Source: Arenibacter aquaticus (lineage in GTDB: Bacteria; Bacteroidota; Bacteroidia; Flavobacteriales; Flavobacteriaceae). Taken from it: a stretch of 64,000 nucleotides of DNA. The notes under the pieces are model-generated. The model searched no databases and was not told the origin of the DNA. It saw only the letters and a list, made by a program, of their open reading frames with translations. The first letter of the stretch is position 1. The number at the start of each line of letters is the position of its first letter. Below, piece by piece: positions 1 to 17,249 of the stretch. The stretch spans positions 170,210-234,209 of the forward strand of contig NZ_RQPJ01000021.1 in assembly GCF_003957295.1 (NCBI RefSeq), read 5' to 3'. The position numbers and the translations under genes were made by a program.

Positions 1-1667
1 AGGGGAAGATAGTAAAATGGTTTGGTAGCAATACTGATATTACGGATCATGTAAGGGCGCAAAAAAAGCTGGAGGAAAGCGAAAAAAAATTCCGACTCCT
101 CGCCAATTCCCTTCCGCAGCTTATTTGGATAGCCGATCCCAAAGGTAACCTCAATTATTTTAATAAGGCGGTAATGGAGTACTCCGGACTGTCACTAGAA
201 GAAATAGAGAATGGAGGGTGGTTGCAGATCGTACATGCAGAGGATAGGACAAAAAATATTGAATTGTGGGAATACTCGGTAGCCACAGGAGAAGATTTTT
301 TGATGGAGCATCGTTTTCGCAAACACGACGGTACATACCGTTGGCATCTAAGTAGGGCTCAGGCACATCGCGATGACAGAGGAAAAATACAAATGTGGGT
401 TGGCAGCAGTGCAGATATACAAGAGCAAAAAGTTTTTAGGAACGAACTGGAAAGGCAGGTCAGGGAACGTACCGCTCAGCTGTTGGAATTAAATGAATCC
501 CTTAAAAAAAGTGAACAGCGTTATCACCTGATGGTTGAAGAGGTTCAGGAATACGCCATACTATACTTAAACCGTGAGGGTATAGTGGAAAATTGGAATT
601 CAGGTGCGGAAAAAATAAAGGGTTATAAGGCAGAAGAAATAATAGGTAAGAGTTTTTCCAATTTTTATACACAAAAGGACAGAAAGGTTAGGCTTCCCCA
701 AAAATTATTGGGCATGGCCGCGAAAGAAGGTAAAGCGGTACATCAGGGCTGGCGGGTAAGGAAGGATAAAAGTTTGTTTTGGGCAAGTGTGGTTATTACC
801 GCCATACATAATGAGCTAAATGAAGTGATAGGCTTTTCTAAGGTTACACACGATTTAACTACAAAGAAAGAGGCGGATGATGCTCTAAACGAAAAAAAGT
901 TGGAACTGGAGCAAAAGAATATTGAACTTCAGAAAATGAACAAGGAGCTGCAATCCTTTGCCTATATTTCTAGTCATGACCTACAAGAGCCGCTAAGAAA
1001 AATACAGACCTTTGCCTCTCGAATTATAGAGAAAGACATGGATACCCTTTCCGAAAAAGGGAAATTTCTGTTTAATCGGATGCAACTTTCTGCAGAACGG
1101 ATGCAGTCGCTTATAGATGATTTGTTGGCCTATTCCCGGACGCACAATATGGAGGGCGATTTTAAGCATACATCTTTGGGTAATATAATAGAGGATGTGA
1201 AACAGGATCTTAGTGAAGAGCTCCTTGAAAAGAATGCATCTATTGAGTTTGATGGTACATGTGAGATCTTTGTTATACCTTTTCAGATGAAACAACTGTT
1301 TTACAATCTGATAAGTAATTCCTTGAAATTTTCTAAGCCGGACCTAGCTGTAGAGATCTCTATAAAGAGTGATCACGTAACGGACCATGGTAGGGAGGAA
1401 GAAGAAAAGCCAACTGGCCATACATACTGTCGGATCGTTTATTCGGACAACGGCATTGGATTTGATCAAAAGTATAGCGAAAAGATATTTGAACTATTCC
1501 AACGGCTCCACGGGAAGACAGAATACCCTGGAACGGGAATAGGGCTTGCCATTATAAAACGCATAGTGGAAAATCATAACGGTATGGTAACGGCAAGGGG
1601 TGAATTGGGCAAGGGGGCAAGCTTTGAGATACTACTTCCGTTAAATGAGGCACAAGCCATACGCTAA
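1..1667 (+). CDS. PAS-domain sensor histidine kinase, 5' truncated by window edge
   Basis: The frame is open from the first bases, so the N-terminus lies upstream; about 555 codons are visible. In order there is the end of one PAS/PAC unit (WFGSNTDITD), a PAS domain (ANSLPQLIWIADPKG), a short coiled coil, another PAS domain (YAILYLNREGIVENW), a second coiled coil, a DHp domain with H box SSHDLQEPLRK, and a HATPase domain with N box (NLISNSLKF), D box (DNGIGF) and G box (GTGIGLAI). The kinase core is complete and should autophosphorylate on the H-box histidine. No membrane segment is visible, so the seen part is cytoplasmic. SHDLQEPL-type H boxes are common in Bacteroidota PAS kinases. No response regulator adjoins it directly, and the ligand is unknown. 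Confidence 0.93.
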   Translation, partial: GKIVKWFGSNTDITDHVRAQKKLEESEKKFRLLANSLPQLIWIADPKGNLNYFNKAVMEYSGLSLEEIENGGWLQIVHAEDRTKNIELWEYSVATGEDFLMEHRFRKHDGTYRWHLSRAQAHRDDRGKIQMWVGSSADIQEQKVFRNELERQVRERTAQLLELNESLKKSEQRYHLMVEEVQEYAILYLNREGIVENWNSGAEKIKGYKAEEIIGKSFSNFYTQKDRKVRLPQKLLGMAAKEGKAVHQGWRVRKDKSLFWASVVITAIHNELNEVIGFSKVTHDLTTKKEADDALNEKKLELEQKNIELQKMNKELQSFAYISSHDLQEPLRKIQTFASRIIEKDMDTLSEKGKFLFNRMQLSAERMQSLIDDLLAYSRTHNMEGDFKHTSLGNIIEDVKQDLSEELLEKNASIEFDGTCEIFVIPFQMKQLFYNLISNSLKFSKPDLAVEISIKSDHVTDHGREEEEKPTGHTYCRIVYSDNGIGFDQKYSEKIFELFQRLHGKTEYPGTGIGLAIIKRIVENHNGMVTARGELGKGASFEILLPLNEAQAIR

Positions 1668-1979
1668 CATGAAACCTAATGTCTAACTAGTACGATGTCA
1701 AAATAAGAGGTGGGCCCAAGACTCATAGGGGATAAGTATGCAATGATAAGGCTGATATATGGGGCAAGCTAGTCCAATGATAAAGGTGTTGCCATATCTA
1801 CCAGAAATATTCCAAAATTTAAGGGAAGTCTAATTTTTATATGTTTATAAATAACACCAAACTTGTTAGTTCTTTATTTAAAAAACTGAGAACCAACTTC
1901 TATAACGGTTAATAAAAAGCACATTTTTTTTATGGCCAAAACTGCATCCTAAAGAAAGAAATGAGGTAATTTTGACGCC
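1668..1979. other. intergenic region, 312 bp, no gene seen
   Basis: This AT-rich stretch separates the kinase from the small unknown gene. I see no convincing ORF, RNA or strong hairpin. A TAATTTTG box at 1967-1974 matches the Bacteroidota -7 consensus TAnnTTTG, but no clear -33 TTG lies 17-19 bp upstream of it. Confidence 0.5.
1967..1974 (+). promoter_or_regulatory. possible -7 promoter box (TAnnTTTG)
   Basis: TAATTTTG matches the Bacteroidota primary sigma -7 consensus exactly. It lies only 5 bases before the ATG at 1980. If it is used, transcription would begin near 1981, and the ATG at 2001 would be the likelier start of the following gene. No matching -33 element is visible, so support is weak. 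Confidence 0.3.
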
Positions 1980-2327
1980 ATGAAAAGAGGGTGTATTTCT
2001 ATGGCCGAGTCAACGGATTTTAAGGGAGGGCAATTAAAGGAAGTTCCTTCCTTATCCCTTGATGTTCCGGTGTGTTCCTTTTCGGGGAAACCAGCGGAAT
2101 ATTATATCGGGCTATCTGGTATGGACAATTCAGAGGAGGTAAGGATTCTTGGGGCAATCAGTTCCGAGTTTGTAGAAACGGCAATCGTGAACGTTTTGGG
2201 ACAAGGGGTAGACGACATTCATTGGCCGGTGATCCTAGACCTAAATAAAGAAATATATTACCATTCCTATCAAGCGCATGCCCGAGGCCTATCAGCAATA
2301 ATGGGATGGAAAGAATTGCAGGGATAA
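1980..2327 (+). CDS. hypothetical protein, 115 aa
   Basis: I do not recognise this protein. It has no signal peptide, membrane segment or metal motif. It contains a predicted alpha/beta-like stretch (VCSFSGKPAEYYIGLSGMD) and a C-terminal segment ending MGWKELQG. Two starts are possible: ATG at 1980 (MKRGCISMAES) and ATG at 2001 (MAESTDF). The second fits better if the TAnnTTTG box at 1967-1974 is the promoter. It stands alone between two PAS signalling genes on the same strand, more than 300 bp from either, so it is probably its own transcription unit. Base use resembles the neighbours. Function unknown; I am fairly but not fully sure it is a real gene. Confidence 0.55.
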   Translation: MKRGCISMAESTDFKGGQLKEVPSLSLDVPVCSFSGKPAEYYIGLSGMDNSEEVRILGAISSEFVETAIVNVLGQGVDDIHWPVILDLNKEIYYHSYQAHARGLSAIMGWKELQG

Positions 2328-8427: not shown

Positions 8428-8435
8428 TACATTTA
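8428..8435 (+). promoter_or_regulatory. candidate -7 box of the riboswitch operon
   Basis: TACATTTA differs from TAnnTTTG only in its last base, and it would place the transcription start at about 8442, right at the 5' edge of the TPP aptamer. There is no good -33 TTG at the right distance. It is proposed because its position fits the aptamer, not because of its strength. Confidence 0.3.
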
Positions 8436-8444
8436 TCAACACTA

Positions 8445-8527
8445 AAGCACGGGGTGCCTGGTAAAGACCAAGCTGAGATAATACCCGATACCTGATTTGG
8501 ATAATGCCAACGTAGGGATGCAAGCCA
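8445..8527 (+). promoter_or_regulatory. TPP riboswitch (thi-box aptamer)
   Basis: The conserved thi-box elements appear in the right order: GGGGTGCC (8451-8458), CTGAGATAATACCC (8473-8486), ACCTGAT (8490-8496), and GGATAATGCCAACGTAGGGA (8499-8518). These are the strongly conserved sequences of the TPP aptamer that bind thiamine pyrophosphate. It is directly followed by a hairpin with a T-run (8544-8587), then the ATG of the methyltransferase gene at 8598. In the TPP-bound state the operon should be switched off by termination. Confidence 0.93.
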
Positions 8528-8543
8528 AGATATTTCGTTTTCG

Positions 8544-8587
8544 GCTCCATTGTTTGGTACTCCAAATAATGGAGCTTTTGTTTTTAA
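8544..8587 (+). terminator. intrinsic terminator, expression platform of the TPP riboswitch
   Basis: An 8-bp stem GCTCCATT (8544-8551) pairs with AATGGAGC (8568-8575), with a 16-base loop, and is followed by TTTTGTTTTT. It lies between the aptamer and the first start codon, as expected for a transcription-attenuation riboswitch. The antiterminator partner was not worked out. Confidence 0.8.
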
Positions 8588-8597
8588 ACAAATTAAA

Positions 8598-9320
8598 ATG
8601 AAAATAGAAAAATCAAATCTAGAACTTATTCCCAAGGACGACCAAAATTGGCAAAACAGGCCAGAATGGTTTTTTAACAGAGAACACACGGATACCTATG
8701 AGCAATGGTACGAAGGGAGGTACAAGCGTGCTGAAATATGGCAAAAGAAGGTAATGGAACAACTGGTGTCCAAAGATAAACGTATCAAAACATTGTTGGA
8801 ATTTGGCTGTGGTACTACCCGCTTTACCCGCTGGTGGAAAGAGATTGGCATTGAGGCAACAGGAGGCGATATTTCACCATTGATGCTTTCGCAAGCCGTA
8901 GAATTATTTGATGGTGATCTTGTTATGGCCGATTCGCACCACATGCCCTTTAAAGACCATTCCTTTGATTCCCTCGCCTTCATTACCACTTTTGAATATT
9001 ACAAGGACCCAGTACAAGTAATCCGAGAGGCTGCAAGAGTAGGGAAATATGGTATAGCCATGGGCATGATGAATAGAAATTCTACCAAGGTGGTGAGAAG
9101 AAGGATACAAGAAGTGTTTGGTAAGAATCCATTCTATCTTACGGCAACCTTTTACACACCGGAAAAACTTACCAAAATTATAGAAACGGCGCTTGAAGGT
9201 AGGGATTACTCCATAGAATGGACTTGTACCGGACTGCCCAAATGGTTTCCCGTACAACAATGGAGTCTGCCACTAGGTGATTTTTTTGGGTTGTACATCA
9301 AATTAAATGACGTAGAATAA
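8598..9320 (+). CDS. class I SAM-dependent methyltransferase, first gene of TPP-riboswitch operon
   Basis: A 240-residue protein with a Rossmann-type SAM-binding fold. Motif I is LLEFGCGTTRF (66-76), an acidic residue follows strand 2 (GGDIS, Asp91), and MADSHHMPF (110-118) is the Methyltransf_11-like post-II segment. The C-terminal part has the aromatic-rich stretch GLPKWFPVQQW. The ATG at 8598 is chosen because an upstream in-frame ATG at 8550 would lie inside the terminator stem. The stop abuts the ATG of the next gene with no gap. Its substrate is unknown; control by a TPP riboswitch points to thiamine or a thiamine precursor or analogue. The Trm112-like protein at the operon end could be its activating partner, as Trm112 is for several class I methyltransferases (inference). 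Confidence 0.88.
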   Translation: MKIEKSNLELIPKDDQNWQNRPEWFFNREHTDTYEQWYEGRYKRAEIWQKKVMEQLVSKDKRIKTLLEFGCGTTRFTRWWKEIGIEATGGDISPLMLSQAVELFDGDLVMADSHHMPFKDHSFDSLAFITTFEYYKDPVQVIREAARVGKYGIAMGMMNRNSTKVVRRRIQEVFGKNPFYLTATFYTPEKLTKIIETALEGRDYSIEWTCTGLPKWFPVQQWSLPLGDFFGLYIKLNDVE

Positions 9321-10376
9321 ATGAGCGACAAACTAGGAAAAATAGATCCACATTTATTCCAAAAATTTATTGACAATAAATGTGGCTTTAATAGAAAGGA
9401 AGTAAGCACTGGACCTGGATTTGGGGTAGATGTCTCAATTGTAGATTTGCCTCAGGGTATGGCTATGGCCATGACCAGTGACCCACTAACTCTCCTCCCA
9501 AGTCTTGGATTGGAGGAGTCGGCCTGGCTATCCGTACAATTAATGGCAAACGATATGGCCACCACAGGCTATGCACCCATGTACGGGCAATTTGTTTTAA
9601 ATCTGCCCAGTAGCTTTTCAAAATCGGATTTTGAGGTATATTGGAACTATATACACCGTTTTTGTTCTAAAATTGGAATAGCCATTACCGGCGGTCATAC
9701 AGGTTTTGTAGAAGGGCAAAATTCCACTATGGCCGGTGGAGGTACATTTATAACCATTGGACCTAAAGACAATATGTTGGTTTCAAAAAAAGCACGGCCG
9801 GGAGATACCATCTTGGTGACAAAATCCTGCGCTATTTCTTCTTCGGCCATACTTGCCATGTGTTTTCCGGAAAGCGTTAAAAATAAATTGGGTGCCGAAA
9901 TACAAGAACTGGCCAGTGATTCTTTTTACGACACCTCGTCACTCCAAGATGCCTTGGCTGCGGTAGGGAAAAATAGGGAGCATAGGGATATAACGGCCAT
10001 GCATGATGTTACAGAGGGAGGTGTTTTGGGAGCAATATATGAATTGGCAACGGCTTCCGATAACGGGGCTCTGATATATAATGATCAATTGCCTGTAGGT
10101 TATGTTCAAAATAAAGTCTGCGACTTGTTTTCCTTGGACCCACGTAACTGTATAGGGGCAGGCTCAATGGTCATCACCTGTAAAAAAGGAAGCGCAAGAG
10201 ATGTCATCCCTAGGTTGGAAAAGGAAAATATTGTCTGTACTGAAGTGGGGGAAATAGTGGAAAGGGACAAAGGAATAAAGCTTATGAAAAATGATGAGGC
10301 CAACAGGCTAGGGTACAATGAAAATGACCCCTATTGGGCAGCATTTTACAAAGCATTTAATTCGGGTTGGAAATGA
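9321..10376 (+). CDS. AIR synthase-related (PurM/HypE/ThiL superfamily) protein
   Basis: A 351-residue ATP-binding-superfamily protein. The N-terminal half has GPGFGVDVS (31-39), TSDPLT (52-57) and ANDMATTGYAPMY (76-88), the metal/nucleotide features of the PurM/HypE/SelD/ThiL fold. Next comes GGHTGF, and the C-terminal half carries the HDVTEGGVLGAIYE signature. The motif pattern is closest to HypE and to unassigned AIR-synthase-like proteins. No hydrogenase genes are nearby, so a HypE role is unlikely. ThiL (thiamine-phosphate kinase) belongs to this fold, and the TPP riboswitch makes a thiamine-related phosphotransfer plausible, but the sequence does not look like standard ThiL. It starts directly after the methyltransferase stop, and its TGA overlaps the next ATG, so translation is likely coupled. 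Confidence 0.83.
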   Translation: MSDKLGKIDPHLFQKFIDNKCGFNRKEVSTGPGFGVDVSIVDLPQGMAMAMTSDPLTLLPSLGLEESAWLSVQLMANDMATTGYAPMYGQFVLNLPSSFSKSDFEVYWNYIHRFCSKIGIAITGGHTGFVEGQNSTMAGGGTFITIGPKDNMLVSKKARPGDTILVTKSCAISSSAILAMCFPESVKNKLGAEIQELASDSFYDTSSLQDALAAVGKNREHRDITAMHDVTEGGVLGAIYELATASDNGALIYNDQLPVGYVQNKVCDLFSLDPRNCIGAGSMVITCKKGSARDVIPRLEKENIVCTEVGEIVERDKGIKLMKNDEANRLGYNENDPYWAAFYKAFNSGWK

Positions 10377-11014
10377 ATGCGGGCCAAAAACGAAAAATGG
10401 GTTCCGGTATCTATTTGATAATTGACCCATCAATGGATGAAAAAGTTCTTCTGAATAAGTTAGACATATGCCTTAATGAAAGGCTAGCAGCAGTACAGAT
10501 TTGGGACAATTTTAAAGATACTCAAGATATAACCACTTTAATCTGTAAAATTTGCGATCTATGCCATGCTAAAAATGTTCCGGTATTGATAAATAACCAA
10601 TGGGGTTTGCTTAATAAAACCGATTTGGACGGGATTCATTTTGATATAATTCCTGAAGATTATGAGGAAATAAAAGCTGGAGTAAACAAATCTTTTATAA
10701 GCGGACTTACCTGTAATAATGATTTAAGTTGGGTAGAATGGGCAAACAGGAACAATCTGGACTATATTTCTTTTTGTTCCGTATTTCCTTCCCAAACTGC
10801 CAACAGTTGCGAGATAGTCCATTTTAATACCATACAAAAGGCGTCCAAACATTATGATTTGCCTATATATTTGGCCGGTGGGATTACCGCCAATAATCTG
10901 GGGCAACTTAAGGGACTTAATTTTAAAGGGATTGCTGTGGTATCTGGTATTATGGGCGCAACAAACCCTAGCGAATCAATAAATAATTATCTAAAAGAAT
11001 TAAATAAAAAATGA
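10373..11014 (+). CDS. ThiE/TenI-fold protein with altered active site
   Basis: A 213-residue (beta/alpha)8 protein of the thiamine phosphate synthase/TenI family. Fold markers include LDGIHFD (85-91, like GADGVHLG), DYISFCSVFPSQTA (130-143, like the DYVGxGPVFPTxT strand), LAGGIT (167-172) and GIAVVSGIM (186-194). Expected ThiE ligands are changed: the HMP-PP-binding QLREK reads QIWDN (42-46), the Mg-binding NDR reads NNQ (74-76), and the QDD after GVHLG is not evident. It may be a TenI-like enzyme or have a new activity. ATG 10373 overlaps the upstream TGA by four bases and is preferred to the TTG at 10367. Its stop overlaps the next start in an ATGA. Confidence 0.82.
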   Translation: MNAGQKRKMGSGIYLIIDPSMDEKVLLNKLDICLNERLAAVQIWDNFKDTQDITTLICKICDLCHAKNVPVLINNQWGLLNKTDLDGIHFDIIPEDYEEIKAGVNKSFISGLTCNNDLSWVEWANRNNLDYISFCSVFPSQTANSCEIVHFNTIQKASKHYDLPIYLAGGITANNLGQLKGLNFKGIAVVSGIMGATNPSESINNYLKELNKK

Positions 11015-11295
11015 AGAAAGAAACGATCAACAAACTATGTTGCCCCTTTGACAAAGCGGATCTTAAGCTAACGGAAATAACAAAGGATACCTCCAATAAT
11101 GTGTTGGAAGGCTTTTTAGTATGTACAAATTGTGAACGCTTGTACCCCATTGTAAAAGGTATCCCAATTATGAGTCCGGACGAATACCGTGAATATAAAC
11201 TTGAAAGCCCTTTAGTGGAAAGATGGCAAAAACATCTAAAGGGACGTACGTTTGAAAATTTTAGAATTTCGGCATCTATGGAAGTTGAAGGGTAG
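11011..11295 (+). CDS. Trm112-like small zinc-ribbon protein
   Basis: A 94-residue protein with the Trm112/UPF0434-like plan: LCCPFDKADL (9-18), an inserted strand, VCTNCERLYPIVKGIPIM (37-54), then an acidic-basic tail. The second zinc knuckle is intact (Cys38, Cys41). The first has Cys10-Cys11 but Asp where the second cysteine of CPxC would be, so zinc binding may be partial. Trm112 proteins activate class I methyltransferases, and this gene shares an operon with one (8598-9320). It overlaps the preceding gene by an ATGA and is followed by a strong palindromic terminator at 11383-11417, so it closes the operon. Confidence 0.75.
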   Translation: MKKETINKLCCPFDKADLKLTEITKDTSNNVLEGFLVCTNCERLYPIVKGIPIMSPDEYREYKLESPLVERWQKHLKGRTFENFRISASMEVEG

Positions 11296-11382: not shown

Positions 11383-11417
11383 AAAAAAAATCGAGGGTCG
11401 CGACCCTCGATTTTTTT
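11383..11417. terminator. bidirectional intrinsic terminator
   Basis: A perfect 20-base palindrome (11391-11410, arm TCGAGGGTCG) is flanked by eight A residues on the left and seven T residues on the right. It separates the plus-strand TPP operon from the minus-strand LytTR gene and should stop transcription from both. Confidence 0.9.
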
Positions 11418-11519: not shown

Positions 11520-12212
11520 TTATACATTATGTAGGGCCTCTATTAACACATTTTTTTTGTTTCTGCTCAACGGAAGCTGTCTTCCGTCCAGTTCAACACT
11601 TTTACTATTGAATTTCTGAACTTTTTCCAAATTTACAATGTATGATTTGTGTACCCTCAGGAATTTATCCTTTGGTAATTTCTGTTCAAAAGACTTCATA
11701 GTAGAAAGGATAACTACATTGCCTTCATTGGTCACCAATTTTATATAGTCGCCCAATGCTTCTACCCACTTTATGTCGTTAAGCACTACTTTACGTTGTC
11801 TTAGATTGCTTTTTACAAAGATATATTCATCATCCTCTGGCACCTTTTGCAACTGCTCATATTTAGTTAGAGCTCTTTTTATAGACGTATCAAAACGGGA
11901 AGCAGAGATAGGTTTATGCAGATAATCCGTAACGTCATAATCAAAAGCTTTAAGGGCGTAGTTGGGATTTCCGGTAATCAATATTACCTGTGGTGGGCTG
12001 TCTAAGGATTCCAATAAATCGAACCCATTGATGATGGGCATTTCCACATCCAGAAAAATAAGATCGATGTTACTGTTTTTAAGTCCGTTCTTTGCTTCAA
12101 TGGCATTGCTGTACTCTCCAACCATTGTCAGGTGGGGATGATTGTTCACTAATTTGGCTACGGCAATGCGCTGCATAGACGAATCGTCTACAATAATACT
12201 TCTTAATTTCAT
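11520..12212 (-). CDS. LytTR-family response regulator (paralogue 1)
   Basis: A 230-residue regulator. The receiver domain (1-120) has the acidic pair Asp9-Asp10 (IIVDDSS), phosphoacceptor Asp55 (FLDVEMP), Thr80 (LITGNP) and Lys100 (YLHKPIS), so it looks phosphorylatable. A LytTR DNA-binding domain (about 135-230) contains WVEALGDYIKLVT, the STMKSFEQKLP segment and FLRVHKSYIVNL. The ATG at 12212 is chosen because it matches the start of the paralogue at 17249. The two genes share a 21-22 bp upstream element (12267-12287 here). No histidine kinase is adjacent. It probably acts as a transcription factor with an unknown partner kinase. Confidence 0.9.
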   Translation of the reverse strand: MKLRSIIVDDSSMQRIAVAKLVNNHPHLTMVGEYSNAIEAKNGLKNSNIDLIFLDVEMPIINGFDLLESLDSPPQVILITGNPNYALKAFDYDVTDYLHKPISASRFDTSIKRALTKYEQLQKVPEDDEYIFVKSNLRQRKVVLNDIKWVEALGDYIKLVTNEGNVVILSTMKSFEQKLPKDKFLRVHKSYIVNLEKVQKFNSKSVELDGRQLPLSRNKKNVLIEALHNV

Positions 12213-12266
12213 AATTGGTGATCCTCGTTTTAAATCTTGTTGAAGGTACCCAAAACTACCTTCCAA

Positions 12267-13036: not shown

Positions 13037-13525
13037 TTATAGGGGTATGGCATGGGCGTTTTTTATCTCTCCCATCACAAAGGTACTATGTGCACTTCCA
13101 ATGTTTTTCATGGATCCAAGATGGTTCAAGACAAAATCTTGGTAATGCTTCATATCCTTTACCATTACCTTGAGTAAAAAATCATAATCGCCAGATACGT
13201 TGTAGCATTCGGTAACTTCCTTGATTGCCGCGATATCCTTTACAAATTGGTGTCCAATTTCACGGGTGTGCTGTTTTAAGGTTATGTTGCAAAACACTGT
13301 TAAGCCCTTGTCCATTTTTTCGGGATCCAATACAGCCACATATTTTTTTATATAGCCCTTTTTTTCCAATCTTTTTACCCGTTCAAATACGGGTGTGGTA
13401 GATAAATTAACCCTATTGGCCAGCTCCTTGGTAGTTAGATTGGAATTGCTCTGCAGTAATTTTAGAATTTGAATATCAATTTTGTCCAAATTGGTCATAG
13501 AATATTTTTCTGTTTTAATGCCCAT
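13037..13525 (-). CDS. Lrp/AsnC-family transcriptional regulator (divergent to metE)
   Basis: A 162-residue regulator (153 if the ATG at 13498, MTNLDKID, is the start). The N-terminal helix-turn-helix carries LDKIDIQILKLLQ and LTTKELANRVNLSTTPVFER. The C-terminal RAM ligand-binding domain includes KEVTECYNVSGDYDFLLKV and the STFVMGEI end strand. Lrp proteins bind amino acids and control amino-acid metabolism. The gene is transcribed divergently from metE with 130 bp between, where a 17-bp palindrome (13574-13590) could be its operator. A paralogue (49956-50414) has the same arrangement with a trans-sulfuration enzyme. Regulation of methionine synthesis is therefore likely, but inferred. Confidence 0.9.
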   Translation of the reverse strand: MGIKTEKYSMTNLDKIDIQILKLLQSNSNLTTKELANRVNLSTTPVFERVKRLEKKGYIKKYVAVLDPEKMDKGLTVFCNITLKQHTREIGHQFVKDIAAIKEVTECYNVSGDYDFLLKVMVKDMKHYQDFVLNHLGSMKNIGSAHSTFVMGEIKNAHAIPL

Positions 13526-13655: not shown

Positions 13656-15974
13656 ATGAAAACCAACGTTTTAGGATACCCGAGAATTGGGGCCAAAAGA
13701 GAGTTAAAGAAAGCCATAGAGAAATATTGGAAAAAGAAAATTTCAGCTGAGGAACTGTTGGAGGTTGGCAGTCAAATACGAAGAAAAAATTGGATCCTGC
13801 AAAAAAAGAGTGGGATCCATTTTATTCCCTCTAATGACTTTTCCTTTTACGATCAGGTATTGGATGCCACAATGACCTATGGCTGTATTCCCGAAAGATT
13901 CAGGGAAATTGATAAAAATAGATCGGACCTAGATCTTTATTTTGCTATGGCAAGGGGGCTACAGGAGGATAGTTTTGATATTACGGCACTAGAAATGACA
14001 AAATGGTTTGATACAAACTATCACTATTTAGTGCCTGAATTTGCAAAGAGCCAGACATTTGAATTGCGTTCCCTAAAAGCTGTTGAAGAATTTAAAGAAG
14101 CATTGGATCAGGGTATTTCAACCAAGCCTGTATTGATATCCCCGGTTACTTACCTTTTTCTAGGGAAGGAGAAGGAGGAAGGCTTCCATAGATTGGATTT
14201 ACTGGAAGCCCTTTTGCCCGAGTTTTATAAACTGTTATCACAGTTATCCGCTGCTGGAGCGGAATACATACAATTGGATGAACCCTGTTTGGCGATGGAC
14301 TTGACCCATAAAGAGCTGACGGCCATAAAGACACTGTACACAGATATAGCAGAAAAATTCCCCAAATTAAGAATAATTCTAACCAATTACTTTGACTGCT
14401 ATGGAGCCAATTTGGAAACTATTTTAGGTCTTCCCGTTCATGCCATCCATTTAGATCTGGTCCGGTGCCCATTGCAGTTGAACGACATCATAGATTCTCC
14501 AACTTACAAAGGTAAGCAAGTACTTTCGTTAGGAGTTGTTGACGGTAGAAATATATGGCGCAATAATTTTGATTCCTCCTTGGACCTCATAAACATGGCC
14601 TTGCAAAATGTTTCTATTGAAAAGCTCTGGGTTTCCAGTTCTTGCTCATTTCTACATGCGCCCTATGATCTAGATCTAGAGACCAATGAAAAAAGTTTAC
14701 CAGCCGAAGTAAAGCAGTGGATGGCATTTTCAAAACAAAAACTAAAGGAGTTGGTAACATTAAGTGAGCTTACACCGGAAATACCCACAGAAGAGGCGGC
14801 AATGGAATTGGTAAGTAATAGACGTACTTTTATTGATAAAAGAATCTCTGGACTGGTGCATCACAGCCCCACCAAGCAAAGGGTCCAATCCTTGGCGGAT
14901 ACGGCAGGAAAACGTAAGAGCGCCTTTACTGTTAGGAGGTATGAGCAGGGAAAGAAATTAGGTCTGCCATTATTTCCTACTACCACAATTGGATCTTTTC
15001 CCCAAACCAGGGAGGTGAGGAGTATAAGAAGACAATTTAAAAACAAGGAAATTACCAGTACGGAATACAATGAATTCCTGAAGAAAGAAACCCAAAGGGC
15101 TATTGCTTTTCAAGAGGATATAGGGTTGGATGTTTTGGTGCACGGCGAATATGAAAGAAACGACATGGTGGAGTATTTCGGGGAAAAATTAGAGGGGTTT
15201 GCCTTTTCCGGAAATGGATGGGTACAAAGTTATGGTAGCCGCTGTGTAAAGCCTCCCATCATTTATGGAGACGTATATAGGGATAAGCCTATGACGGTAA
15301 AATGGACTTCTTACGCACAATCGTTAACTAAAAAACCGGTAAAGGGAATGCTTACCGGACCGGTAACTATTTTGCAATGGTCCTTTGTGCGAAACGACCA
15401 GCCTAGATCCGTAACCTGCAAACAAATAGCTTTGGCCATACGGGACGAGGTAACTGATTTGGAGCAGGCGGGAATAAGTATCATTCAGATAGATGAACCT
15501 GCAATACGGGAAGGGCTGCCCTTACGACGTGAATATTGGAATACCTACTTAAATTGGGCGGTGGAGTGTTTTAGAATTTCAGCCTCCGGTGTGGAGGATA
15601 AGACCCAGATTCACACCCATATGTGCTATTCGGAATTCAACGATATTATACAGAACATTGGGGATATGGATGCCGACGTTATTACCATAGAAACCTCAAG
15701 GTCGGAAATGGAGCTTTTGGACGCCTTTGTGAAATACAAGTATCCCAACCAAATAGGACCTGGGGTATACGACATTCATTCTTCCAGGATTCCCAATGAG
15801 CATGAAATGGCGTCTTTATTGCACAAGGCGGCCAAACTCTTACCGGTGGAAAATTTGTGGGTAAATCCGGATTGTGGTCTTAAGACAAGGGACTGGCCAG
15901 AAACCAAGTCCGCTTTGACCAATATGGTAAAGGTGGCCAAAAAAATAAGATCTGAATACACTATTGATGTGTAG
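13656..15974 (+). CDS. metE: cobalamin-independent methionine synthase MetE
   Basis: A full-length 772-residue enzyme that transfers a methyl group from 5-methyltetrahydropteroyltri-L-glutamate to homocysteine, the last step of methionine synthesis, in the cytoplasm. The N-terminus (TNVLGYPRIGAKRELKKAIE) is the family signature. The catalytic C-terminal half shows the zinc ligands His655 and Cys657 (HTHMCYSEF), Glu679 (IETSRSEME) and Cys740 (NPDCGLKTR). It is flanked by a divergent Lrp gene and followed by a strong terminator (16031-16073), so it is monocistronic. No cobalamin riboswitch is seen upstream; control by the neighbouring Lrp is more likely. Confidence 0.98.
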   Translation: MKTNVLGYPRIGAKRELKKAIEKYWKKKISAEELLEVGSQIRRKNWILQKKSGIHFIPSNDFSFYDQVLDATMTYGCIPERFREIDKNRSDLDLYFAMARGLQEDSFDITALEMTKWFDTNYHYLVPEFAKSQTFELRSLKAVEEFKEALDQGISTKPVLISPVTYLFLGKEKEEGFHRLDLLEALLPEFYKLLSQLSAAGAEYIQLDEPCLAMDLTHKELTAIKTLYTDIAEKFPKLRIILTNYFDCYGANLETILGLPVHAIHLDLVRCPLQLNDIIDSPTYKGKQVLSLGVVDGRNIWRNNFDSSLDLINMALQNVSIEKLWVSSSCSFLHAPYDLDLETNEKSLPAEVKQWMAFSKQKLKELVTLSELTPEIPTEEAAMELVSNRRTFIDKRISGLVHHSPTKQRVQSLADTAGKRKSAFTVRRYEQGKKLGLPLFPTTTIGSFPQTREVRSIRRQFKNKEITSTEYNEFLKKETQRAIAFQEDIGLDVLVHGEYERNDMVEYFGEKLEGFAFSGNGWVQSYGSRCVKPPIIYGDVYRDKPMTVKWTSYAQSLTKKPVKGMLTGPVTILQWSFVRNDQPRSVTCKQIALAIRDEVTDLEQAGISIIQIDEPAIREGLPLRREYWNTYLNWAVECFRISASGVEDKTQIHTHMCYSEFNDIIQNIGDMDADVITIETSRSEMELLDAFVKYKYPNQIGPGVYDIHSSRIPNEHEMASLLHKAAKLLPVENLWVNPDCGLKTRDWPETKSALTNMVKVAKKIRSEYTIDV

Positions 15975-16556: not shown

Positions 16557-17249
16557 CTATACATTAAATAACGCCTCAATGAATTCGCTTTTCTTATTTC
16601 TGCTCAATGGCAGCTGAATTCCCTCGACTGTAATTGACTTACTATTGTATTTTTCTACCTTTTCCAAGTTCACAATATAGGATTTATGTGTCCTCAGGAA
16701 TTTATCTTTCGGCAATTTTTGTTCAAAAGATTTCATGGTAGAAAGAATTACTACTGTACCTTCATTGGTGATCAATTTAATATAATCGCCCAGCCCTTGG
16801 ACCCATTTTATATTGTTTAAAACTATTTTACGCTTTCTCAAATTACTTTTTACTATTATATGCTCTTCCTCACTGTTCACGTGAGTACTTTGGTCGTAAT
16901 TGAAGATAGCTGTTTTTACTGAGGCTTCAAAGCTGGCCTGAGAAATGGGTTTATATAGATAGTCGGTAAGTTTAAAATTAAAAGCCTTTGGTGAATAATC
17001 AGGATTGCCGGTAATTAATATTAACTGTGTTGAGGTATCCAAGGCTTCCAAAAATTGGTATCTCTTTACGCTTGGCTTCTCTATATCGATAAAGGCAACA
17101 TCAATGTTGTTGTTTTTAATACCGTTTAACGCTTCGATGGAGTTGGTGTAGTTAGCTATCAAAGTCAGTTTTGGGTGATTGTTTACCAACTTGGTTATGG
17201 CAGCTAGTTGTAAACGTGAATCACATATGATCACACTCTTTAATTTCAT
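16557..17249 (-). CDS. LytTR-family response regulator (paralogue 2) with degenerate receiver pocket
   Basis: A 230-residue paralogue of the regulator at 11520-12212, alignable end to end without gaps. The LytTR domain (WVQGLGDYIKLIT, STMKSFEQKLP, FLRTHKSYIVNL) is almost identical to it. The receiver has diverged: the acidic pair reads Cys9-Asp10 instead of Asp-Asp, and the loop after Asp55 reads FIDIEKPSVKRYQF in place of FLDVEMPIINGFDL, losing the Met and Gly. Lys100 and Thr80 remain. Phosphorylation may be weak or absent. The single receiver gene 16097-16474 follows it. It shares an upstream element with paralogue 1 and may bind the same DNA sites. Confidence 0.88.
   Translation of the reverse strand: MKLKSVIICDSRLQLAAITKLVNNHPKLTLIANYTNSIEALNGIKNNNIDVAFIDIEKPSVKRYQFLEALDTSTQLILITGNPDYSPKAFNFKLTDYLYKPISQASFEASVKTAIFNYDQSTHVNSEEEHIIVKSNLRKRKIVLNNIKWVQGLGDYIKLITNEGTVVILSTMKSFEQKLPKDKFLRTHKSYIVNLEKVEKYNSKSITVEGIQLPLSRNKKSEFIEALFNV

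Follow-up and report, generated by a model that had tools for sequence, protein, structure and literature searches.

ThiL requires thiamine monophosphate (TMP). Marine salvagers of vitamin B1 (thiamine) that carry ThiL and the omr1 receptor but no key B1 synthesis genes are described for 8 Flavobacteriales and 3 Cytophagales genomes in the portion of one study drawn on here (PMC12236431), a gene set that leaves the source of their TMP to be explained. The Bacteroidetes regulon under thiamine pyrophosphate (TPP) riboswitches includes thiSEGCHF-tenI, OMthi, and pnuT-tnr3 in the excerpt of its description used here (PMC5613172). Here, we analyze a 64,000-nucleotide stretch of Arenibacter aquaticus DNA (assembly GCF_003957295.1, a 5.23 Mb genome; contig NZ_RQPJ01000021.1, positions 170,210 to 234,209; hereafter "the window"), in which a TPP riboswitch precedes an operon of four genes encoding an S-adenosylmethionine (SAM)-dependent methyltransferase, an AIR-synthase-like (AIR-like) protein, a ThiE-like protein, and a Trm112-like protein. 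The locus resembles the excerpted regulon in its riboswitch, in the TonB-receptor-like and PnuC/PnuT-type genes that stand under other switches, and in its apparent link to thiamine supply; it differs from it in lacking thiS, thiE, thiG, thiC, thiH, and thiF and in having four other enzymes under the switch. Riboswitch and regulon are of a known kind, and the enzyme set is new within the regulon; no description of the operon was found in the open-access papers searched, a scope outside which most subscription papers fall.

The reading that we favor, at somewhat less than even confidence, is that of a TPP-repressed thiamine salvage operon, found in Bacteroidota that appear to have lost thiamine synthesis, that converts an imported vitamer to TMP. 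That the operon serves B1 supply is likely, and it is probably a new way of rebuilding B1 from environmental fragments or relatives of the vitamin; whether its product is TMP we put at about even.

A conserved operon behind a TPP riboswitch

The aptamer (8440-8535, + strand), called canonical in a preliminary description of the window made from its sequence, is a full-length match to RF00059 (cmscan, model positions 1-105) at 61.5 bits against a gathering cut-off of 54.3. The terminator hairpin placed there between riboswitch and first gene is likewise present, at 8543-8576 (+ strand; 15 pairs, a 4-base loop, and a T-run), and we infer that it is the expression platform of an off-switch. A simple terminator scan returned 4 sites against 3.2 expected, with 8543-8576 as the sole 15-pair stem among them. 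The four genes follow on the + strand: the class I SAM-dependent methyltransferase (8598-9320, 240 aa), the AIR-synthase-superfamily protein (9321-10376, 351 aa), the ThiE-fold protein (10373-11014, 213 aa), and the Trm112-like zinc-finger-type protein (11011-11295, 94 aa). The family calls made for them earlier agree with the Pfam matches (PF08241, 63 bits; PF02769/PF00586, 67/36 bits; PF02581, 103 bits; PF03966, 37.6 bits), and the gene coordinates reproduce the zero-base methyltransferase/AIR-like junction and the ATGA overlaps at the AIR-like/ThiE-like and ThiE-like/Trm112-like junctions. A palindromic, possibly bidirectional terminator, to which no strand is assigned, was read by eye at the operon end, at about 11384-11417; its absence from the scan output is probably due to a stem that runs through the T-tract.

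Relatives were collected by three routes. A scan of named genomes gave 8 good loci in Arenibacter, Algoriphagus, and Marivirga, a ninth, from Nitrospinae, being excluded at 21% (AIR-synthase family) and 25% (ThiE) identity; a 296-genome draw from the phylum gave 11 genomes with an AIR-like match (E up to 1e-40), the window genome included; and draws from one order and one class gave 16 of 128 and 3 of 395 genomes, the latter by their methyltransferase matches (E up to 1e-60). The check proposed at the outset, a search of Bacteroidota for the same gene order and riboswitch, returned all four genes in identical order in 26 of the 29 loci examined with flanks, the three incomplete ones (L096, L097, and L101 in our numbering of loci) being cut by contig ends. 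In L098, one of the 26, the last gene runs up to a contig end. Where DNA upstream of the methyltransferase was available, the riboswitch scored above the gathering cut-off in 26 of 27 loci, and the remaining locus, L039, has a TPP riboswitch at 47.8 bits, below it.

Across 25 loci, the methyltransferase is the most conserved operon protein, with 67-94% identity to the window protein (median 77%), against 46-81% for the AIR-like, 39-69% for the ThiE-like, and 38-83% for the Trm112-like protein; L131 and L132 fall within or close to these ranges, L131 having 36% for the ThiE-like protein. The closest named relatives of the window AIR-like protein are from Arenibacter (79-81% identity). Every gene has a low dN/dS (0.02-0.15) against the four relatives compared, at nearly saturated synonymous sites. 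No fifth conserved gene was seen by eye among the nearest open reading frames (ORFs; one upstream and two downstream per locus); the exceptions among the neighbors are a ThiL gene in genome G388 and, common to L035 and L100, an ORF of 362-365 aa on the same strand. The operon is confirmed as a real, conserved unit.

The leader terminator is not a general feature of the operon. A hairpin matching that of the window occurs in the leaders of 6 Arenibacter loci and of one from Algoriphagus, and more weakly in Marivirga; overall, the search reported a T-run hairpin, in several cases a weak one, for 16 of 27 leaders and nothing for the other 11, the leader of L132 having been cut at a misplaced start in this search. 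Leaders without a hairpin may therefore act on translation.

Two genomes hold two operon copies, each with its own riboswitch: Arenibacter arenosicollis (L004 and L006) and Arenibacter sp. F26102 (L005 and L007, ∼32 kb apart). The methyltransferase match of genome G705 (L125, C1:1105946-1106641) was reported with one in-frame TGA; an intact 260-aa ORF is present at this match, which probably puts the TGA ahead of the start codon.

Thiamine genes and further TPP switches in carriers

Searches of the window genome found no ThiC, no thiamine pyrophosphokinase (TPK), and no second full-length ThiE-family gene beside that of the operon. Two short ThiE-family matches, one of them flagged over the cut-off, are by eye of KDPG-aldolase type and nitronate-monooxygenase type. 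The ThiD family (PF08543) gave partial matches only, at 30 bits or less; one is above the family cut-off and sugar-kinase-like, one of the three matches having been read. A canonical ThiL is present, at 304.5 bits against a cut-off of 184; the AIR-synthase-family genes of this genome are ThiL, a PurM-type gene (115 bits, below its cut-off), and that of the operon. In G388, a canonical ThiL (290.7 bits) lies 22 bp behind the Trm112-like gene on the same strand. With a canonical ThiL elsewhere in the window genome and another beside the operon in G388, the possibility that the AIR-like protein is the cell's ThiL is ruled out.

Within the phylum draw, ThiC was found in none of the 11 carriers and in 103 of the 285 other genomes (hypergeometric test without correction for relatedness, p = 0.008); within genus g13, ThiC is present in four non-carriers and missing from the carrier, G277. 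The presence of TPK neither follows nor precludes that of the operon: it was found in 16 of 24 operon genomes and in 18 of the 23 other genomes tested; of the 8 operon genomes without it, G328 is 88% complete. The 16 operon genomes that have TPK rule out the operon as a general TPK replacement. A check for hidden ThiE or ThiG genes returned 13 short second PF02581 matches in 16 carriers, two of them over the cut-off; the 5 that were read are HisF-like by eye. Separately, an extra ThiE/TenI-like gene is present in the Arenibacter genomes of L045 and L050; in L045 it lies at 1423-2103 (+ strand), by eye directly behind an NADH:flavin-oxidoreductase-like gene.

The window genome has three TPP switches, namely that of the operon, a 55-bit one at a PnuC/PnuT-type transporter gene, whose protein scores 85.6 bits with the PnuC model, and one at a TonB-receptor-like gene (45 bits, below the cut-off). 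Among 17 carrier genomes, 45 switch matches are listed. We read one region per carrier, with the switches of G298-G301 outside this reading: a second switch was read in 12 of the 16 other carriers (that of G277 is below the cut-off), and in all 12 an ORF of 705-843 aa follows that is TonB-receptor-like, the one checked by model matching a TonB receptor at E = 3e-21, below the model cut-off. The lack of ThiC, the presence of ThiL without a canonical ThiE or TPK, the ThiL gene behind the operon in G388, and the uptake-type genes under the other switches together argue for salvage rather than synthesis.

The four proteins and the neighboring genes

The preliminary description had held that no standard thiamine gene is present in the operon, and indeed none of the four proteins passes a curated thiamine-enzyme model. 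The ThiE-like protein, which databases name thiamine phosphate synthase, scores 98.3 bits with the ThiE model TIGR00693 (cut-off 145.1) and 43.9 bits with the TenI thiazole tautomerase model NF005819 (cut-off 251). We compared it by alignment to E. coli ThiE and to members of the ThiE family encoded ∼6 kb or less from ThiC in three Bacteroidota (a fourth locus, L121, gave no match). Like ThiE, it has the fold, the thiazole-phosphate residues, the QxRxK glutamine (at the place of B. subtilis Q57), and the GVH histidine; unlike ThiE, it has tryptophan in place of the QxRxK arginine and asparagine or histidine in place of the lysine, and a later aspartate and lysine are lost. The aligned places are R59, K61, D112, and K159 in what we take to be B. 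subtilis ThiE numbering, presumably the pyrophosphate/Mg ligands, and they are replaced in all 19 operon copies aligned, which bears out the changed active site noted earlier. We take the thiazole-phosphate site of ThiE to be formed by hydroxyls in the PTxT stretch, GGI, and the SG loop. Invariant in a set of 60 ThiE-like sequences (at least 53% identity, from 120 matches listed of 770) are Q42, W44, H89, D91, C135, S140, T142, C146, G169-G170, and S191-G192, position 142 being T or S in more distant operon copies. This pattern of residues suggests that the protein binds something like thiazole phosphate, though probably not hydroxymethylpyrimidine (HMP) pyrophosphate in the usual way.

The AIR-like protein scores below the curated models for ThiL (TIGR01379, 72.3 of 184.15 bits), HypE (TIGR02124, 78.7 of 251.6), and SelD (TIGR00476, 39.8 of 125). 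It belongs to the superfamily of ThiL and HypE, with which its NDMAT, GGHT, and HDVTEGG stretches align; it differs from ThiL in lacking the GGEDYEL motif and from HypE in ending on GWK in the window protein, where E. coli HypE has a C-terminal cysteine, and near its own C-terminus it has a DPYW motif instead. The score and the missing terminal cysteine rule out the hydrogenase factor HypE, the name given in some databases. In a small tree with E. coli ThiL, HypE, SelD, and PurM, eight operon AIR-like proteins make up a separate clade (100/99) outside the ThiL group; the deeper joins are unsure because several reference branches are long. Among the references, the nearest pairwise relatives come from the AIR family on haloarchaeal and cyanobacterial plasmids (27-32% identity, E = 4e-36 to 3e-58), with HypE (8e-16) and ThiL (2e-8) well behind. 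Six of 25 plasmid records were read for context. In the three Haloarcula plasmids found (L128, L133, and L134), a related AIR-family gene is divergent from genes for a thiamine ABC substrate-binding protein and for a thiamine-binding protein (assigned to the MTH1187 family in one record), a pairing that points to a possible thiamine role in archaea.

The methyltransferase passes PF08241 (cut-off 21.2 bits) and, although some database entries label it UbiE, reaches only 43.3 of 158 bits with the MenG/UbiE model TIGR01934. Its structure matches are 1vlm (E = 1e-8), the 18S rRNA methyltransferase 6g4w (6.8e-6), and, weakly, 6f5z_A (0.0072). The Trm112-like protein passes PF03966 (cut-off 22 bits) and scores 65 bits over the full model with NF038101 (Trm112 methyltransferase partner, archaeal by name; cut-off 77); it matches 6zxw_H ("uncharacterized") and 6f5z_C ("UPF0434 family protein"; E = 7.7e-7 for 6f5z), both of which we take to be archaeal Trm112, with 6f5z presumably an archaeal Trm112-methyltransferase complex. 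Two operon proteins thus match two chains of one entry, the methyltransferase only at E = 0.0072, so the earlier suggestion that the Trm112-like protein assists the methyltransferase gains ground; by these matches, the two are likely a working pair. Unlike pairs of the 6f5z type, this putative one is bacterial, TPP-regulated, and linked to thiamine-type enzymes. A plasmid search with the methyltransferase found two haloarchaeal relatives (31% identity) without thiamine context, and a search of viral contigs gave no match.

Beyond the operon, the window has, by eye from the ORF list, a gene for a MetE-like cobalamin-independent methionine synthase (13656-15974, + strand) with an Lrp/AsnC-type regulator gene divergent from it (13037-13525, - strand). 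Two similar LytTR-type response regulators lie near each other (11520-12266 and 16557-17249, both - strand), and a similar LytTR-type ORF stands by eye on the opposite strand after the operon in six Arenibacter loci (L004-L009).

A candidate route of thiamine salvage

On the salvage reading, transcription would pass the terminator of the observed layout when TPP is low, and the operon would be off when TPP is high. The TonB receptor and the PnuC/PnuT-type transporter would raise uptake of thiamine or a related compound, and the four cytosolic enzymes would turn a vitamer unusable by standard enzymes into TMP, which ThiL would convert to TPP, whereupon TPP would shut the switch. The methyltransferase/Trm112-like pair may modify the substrate or activate its leaving group, the AIR-like protein may be an ATP-dependent activating or phosphorylating enzyme, and the ThiE-like protein may catalyze the final reaction, in which something other than HMP pyrophosphate would be the partner, or provide the leaving group, for a thiazole phosphate. 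The most parsimonious product is TMP, because ThiL needs it, the window genome has no TPK or canonical ThiE, ThiL adjoins the operon in G388, and the thiazole-phosphate site is kept. The salvage reading also draws on the spread of the four genes and their switch through the phylum, on the thiamine genes next to the AIR-family gene in the Haloarcula plasmids, and on the B1 auxotrophy of an isolate from the genus Arenibacter (PMC12448291). As for the undescribed route put forward in the preliminary description, a conserved, TPP-switched operon without curated thiamine enzymes is established, while the methylation and phosphorylation of a precursor that it suggested stay conjectural.

Several observations weigh against this reading. 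Of 29 loci, only one has ThiL behind the operon. The exclusion of ThiC is partly a clade effect, given that 8 of the 11 carriers belong to a single family (f23) that has no genome with a listed ThiC, and the ThiC survey covers the 296-genome draw, with G296-G301 and the genomes of the order draw outside it; the thiamine-gene searches of the window genome cover ThiC, ThiD, ThiE, ThiL, and TPK. G300 and G301 carry the further ThiE/TenI-like gene outside the operon (L045 and L050). In the 16 of 24 operon genomes with TPK, imported thiamine alone needs no TMP route, and since five relatives in the window's family (G029, G053, G103, G107, and G118) have neither ThiC nor TPK nor the AIR-like gene, some other path must lead from thiamine to TPP. 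In one record each from Halobacterium, Haloferax, and Acaryochloris, the plasmid AIR-family gene has no thiamine genes next to it. Finally, the invariant D91 of the ThiE-like protein, two residues behind the GVH histidine, could replace D112 as a metal ligand, so that the protein may yet use a pyrophosphate substrate.

This last point bears on ordinary precursor salvage by diverged enzymes, in which the ThiE-like protein would join HMP pyrophosphate to thiazole phosphate, the AIR-like protein would be a diverged kinase, and the methyltransferase and Trm112-like protein would be accessory. The ThiE fold, the database name, and the kept glutamine, histidine, and phosphate site, together with the invariant aspartate, suit such a role, but the replaced ligand places in the 19 aligned copies and the ThiD-family matches of the window genome, all of them partial, do not, and the most conserved gene, the methyltransferase, would be left without a role; we regard it as quite unlikely. 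Unlikely, too, is damage control, in which the operon would detoxify or remove a harmful compound (a thiamine analog, a side product, or a breakdown product) that methylation would inactivate: inactivation of small molecules is common among SAM methyltransferases, and, bar ThiL in G388, no thiamine gene was seen among the listed neighboring ORFs, but repression by TPP suits supply better than detoxification, as does that adjoining ThiL, and the retention of four enzymes together speaks against it as well.

The methyltransferase and Trm112-like protein could instead modify a macromolecule (RNA or protein) under thiamine shortage, the other two genes having a separate role. In the portions of two accounts drawn on here (PMC5372719 and PMC8708615), eukaryotic Trm112 partners modify tRNA, rRNA, and proteins, and the weak match to an 18S rRNA methyltransferase comes from the most conserved protein of the operon; the linkage of the pair to the ThiE-fold and AIR-like genes, TPP-switched throughout the 26 complete loci, makes this improbable. 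A full alternative biosynthesis in place of ThiC, ThiG, and ThiE is very improbable: operon and ThiC never occur together in the sample, but four genes are too few for both moieties of the vitamin, the other TPP-switched genes read are of uptake type, and the Arenibacter isolate E3M18 is auxotrophic for B1, with a Ks of 1.7e-10 M (170 pM) in the portion of the report available (PMC12448291), linked to the operon by genus only.

A more specific form of the salvage reading, which we hold to be a long shot, is that of a methyl-activated thiamine phosphate synthase, in which thiazole would displace a methylated group of the pyrimidine to give TMP without HMP pyrophosphate. The methyltransferase/Trm112-like pair would methylate an aminomethylpyrimidine (such as AmMP, a thiamine breakdown product) or a similar vitamer, making the methylated group a leaving group; the AIR-like protein would supply thiazole phosphate or spend ATP otherwise; and the ThiE-like protein, with W and N/H in place of the pyrophosphate-binding arginine and lysine and a further aromatic residue beside them, would displace the cationic methylated group with thiazole.

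For the marine salvagers that have ThiL but no synthesis genes, the operon is a concrete, TPP-switched candidate for the source of TMP, and it offers uncharacterized protein subfamilies a testable role. Genome screens that score any ThiE-family match as thiE may misread carriers as joining HMP and thiazole. AmMP, HMP, hydroxyethylthiazole (HET), and carboxylated HET (cHET) have been measured in seawater, according to the portion of the study drawn on here (PMC12236431); predictions of marine B1 cross-feeding would change should AmMP, HET, cHET, or similar vitamers prove to be substrates of the operon.

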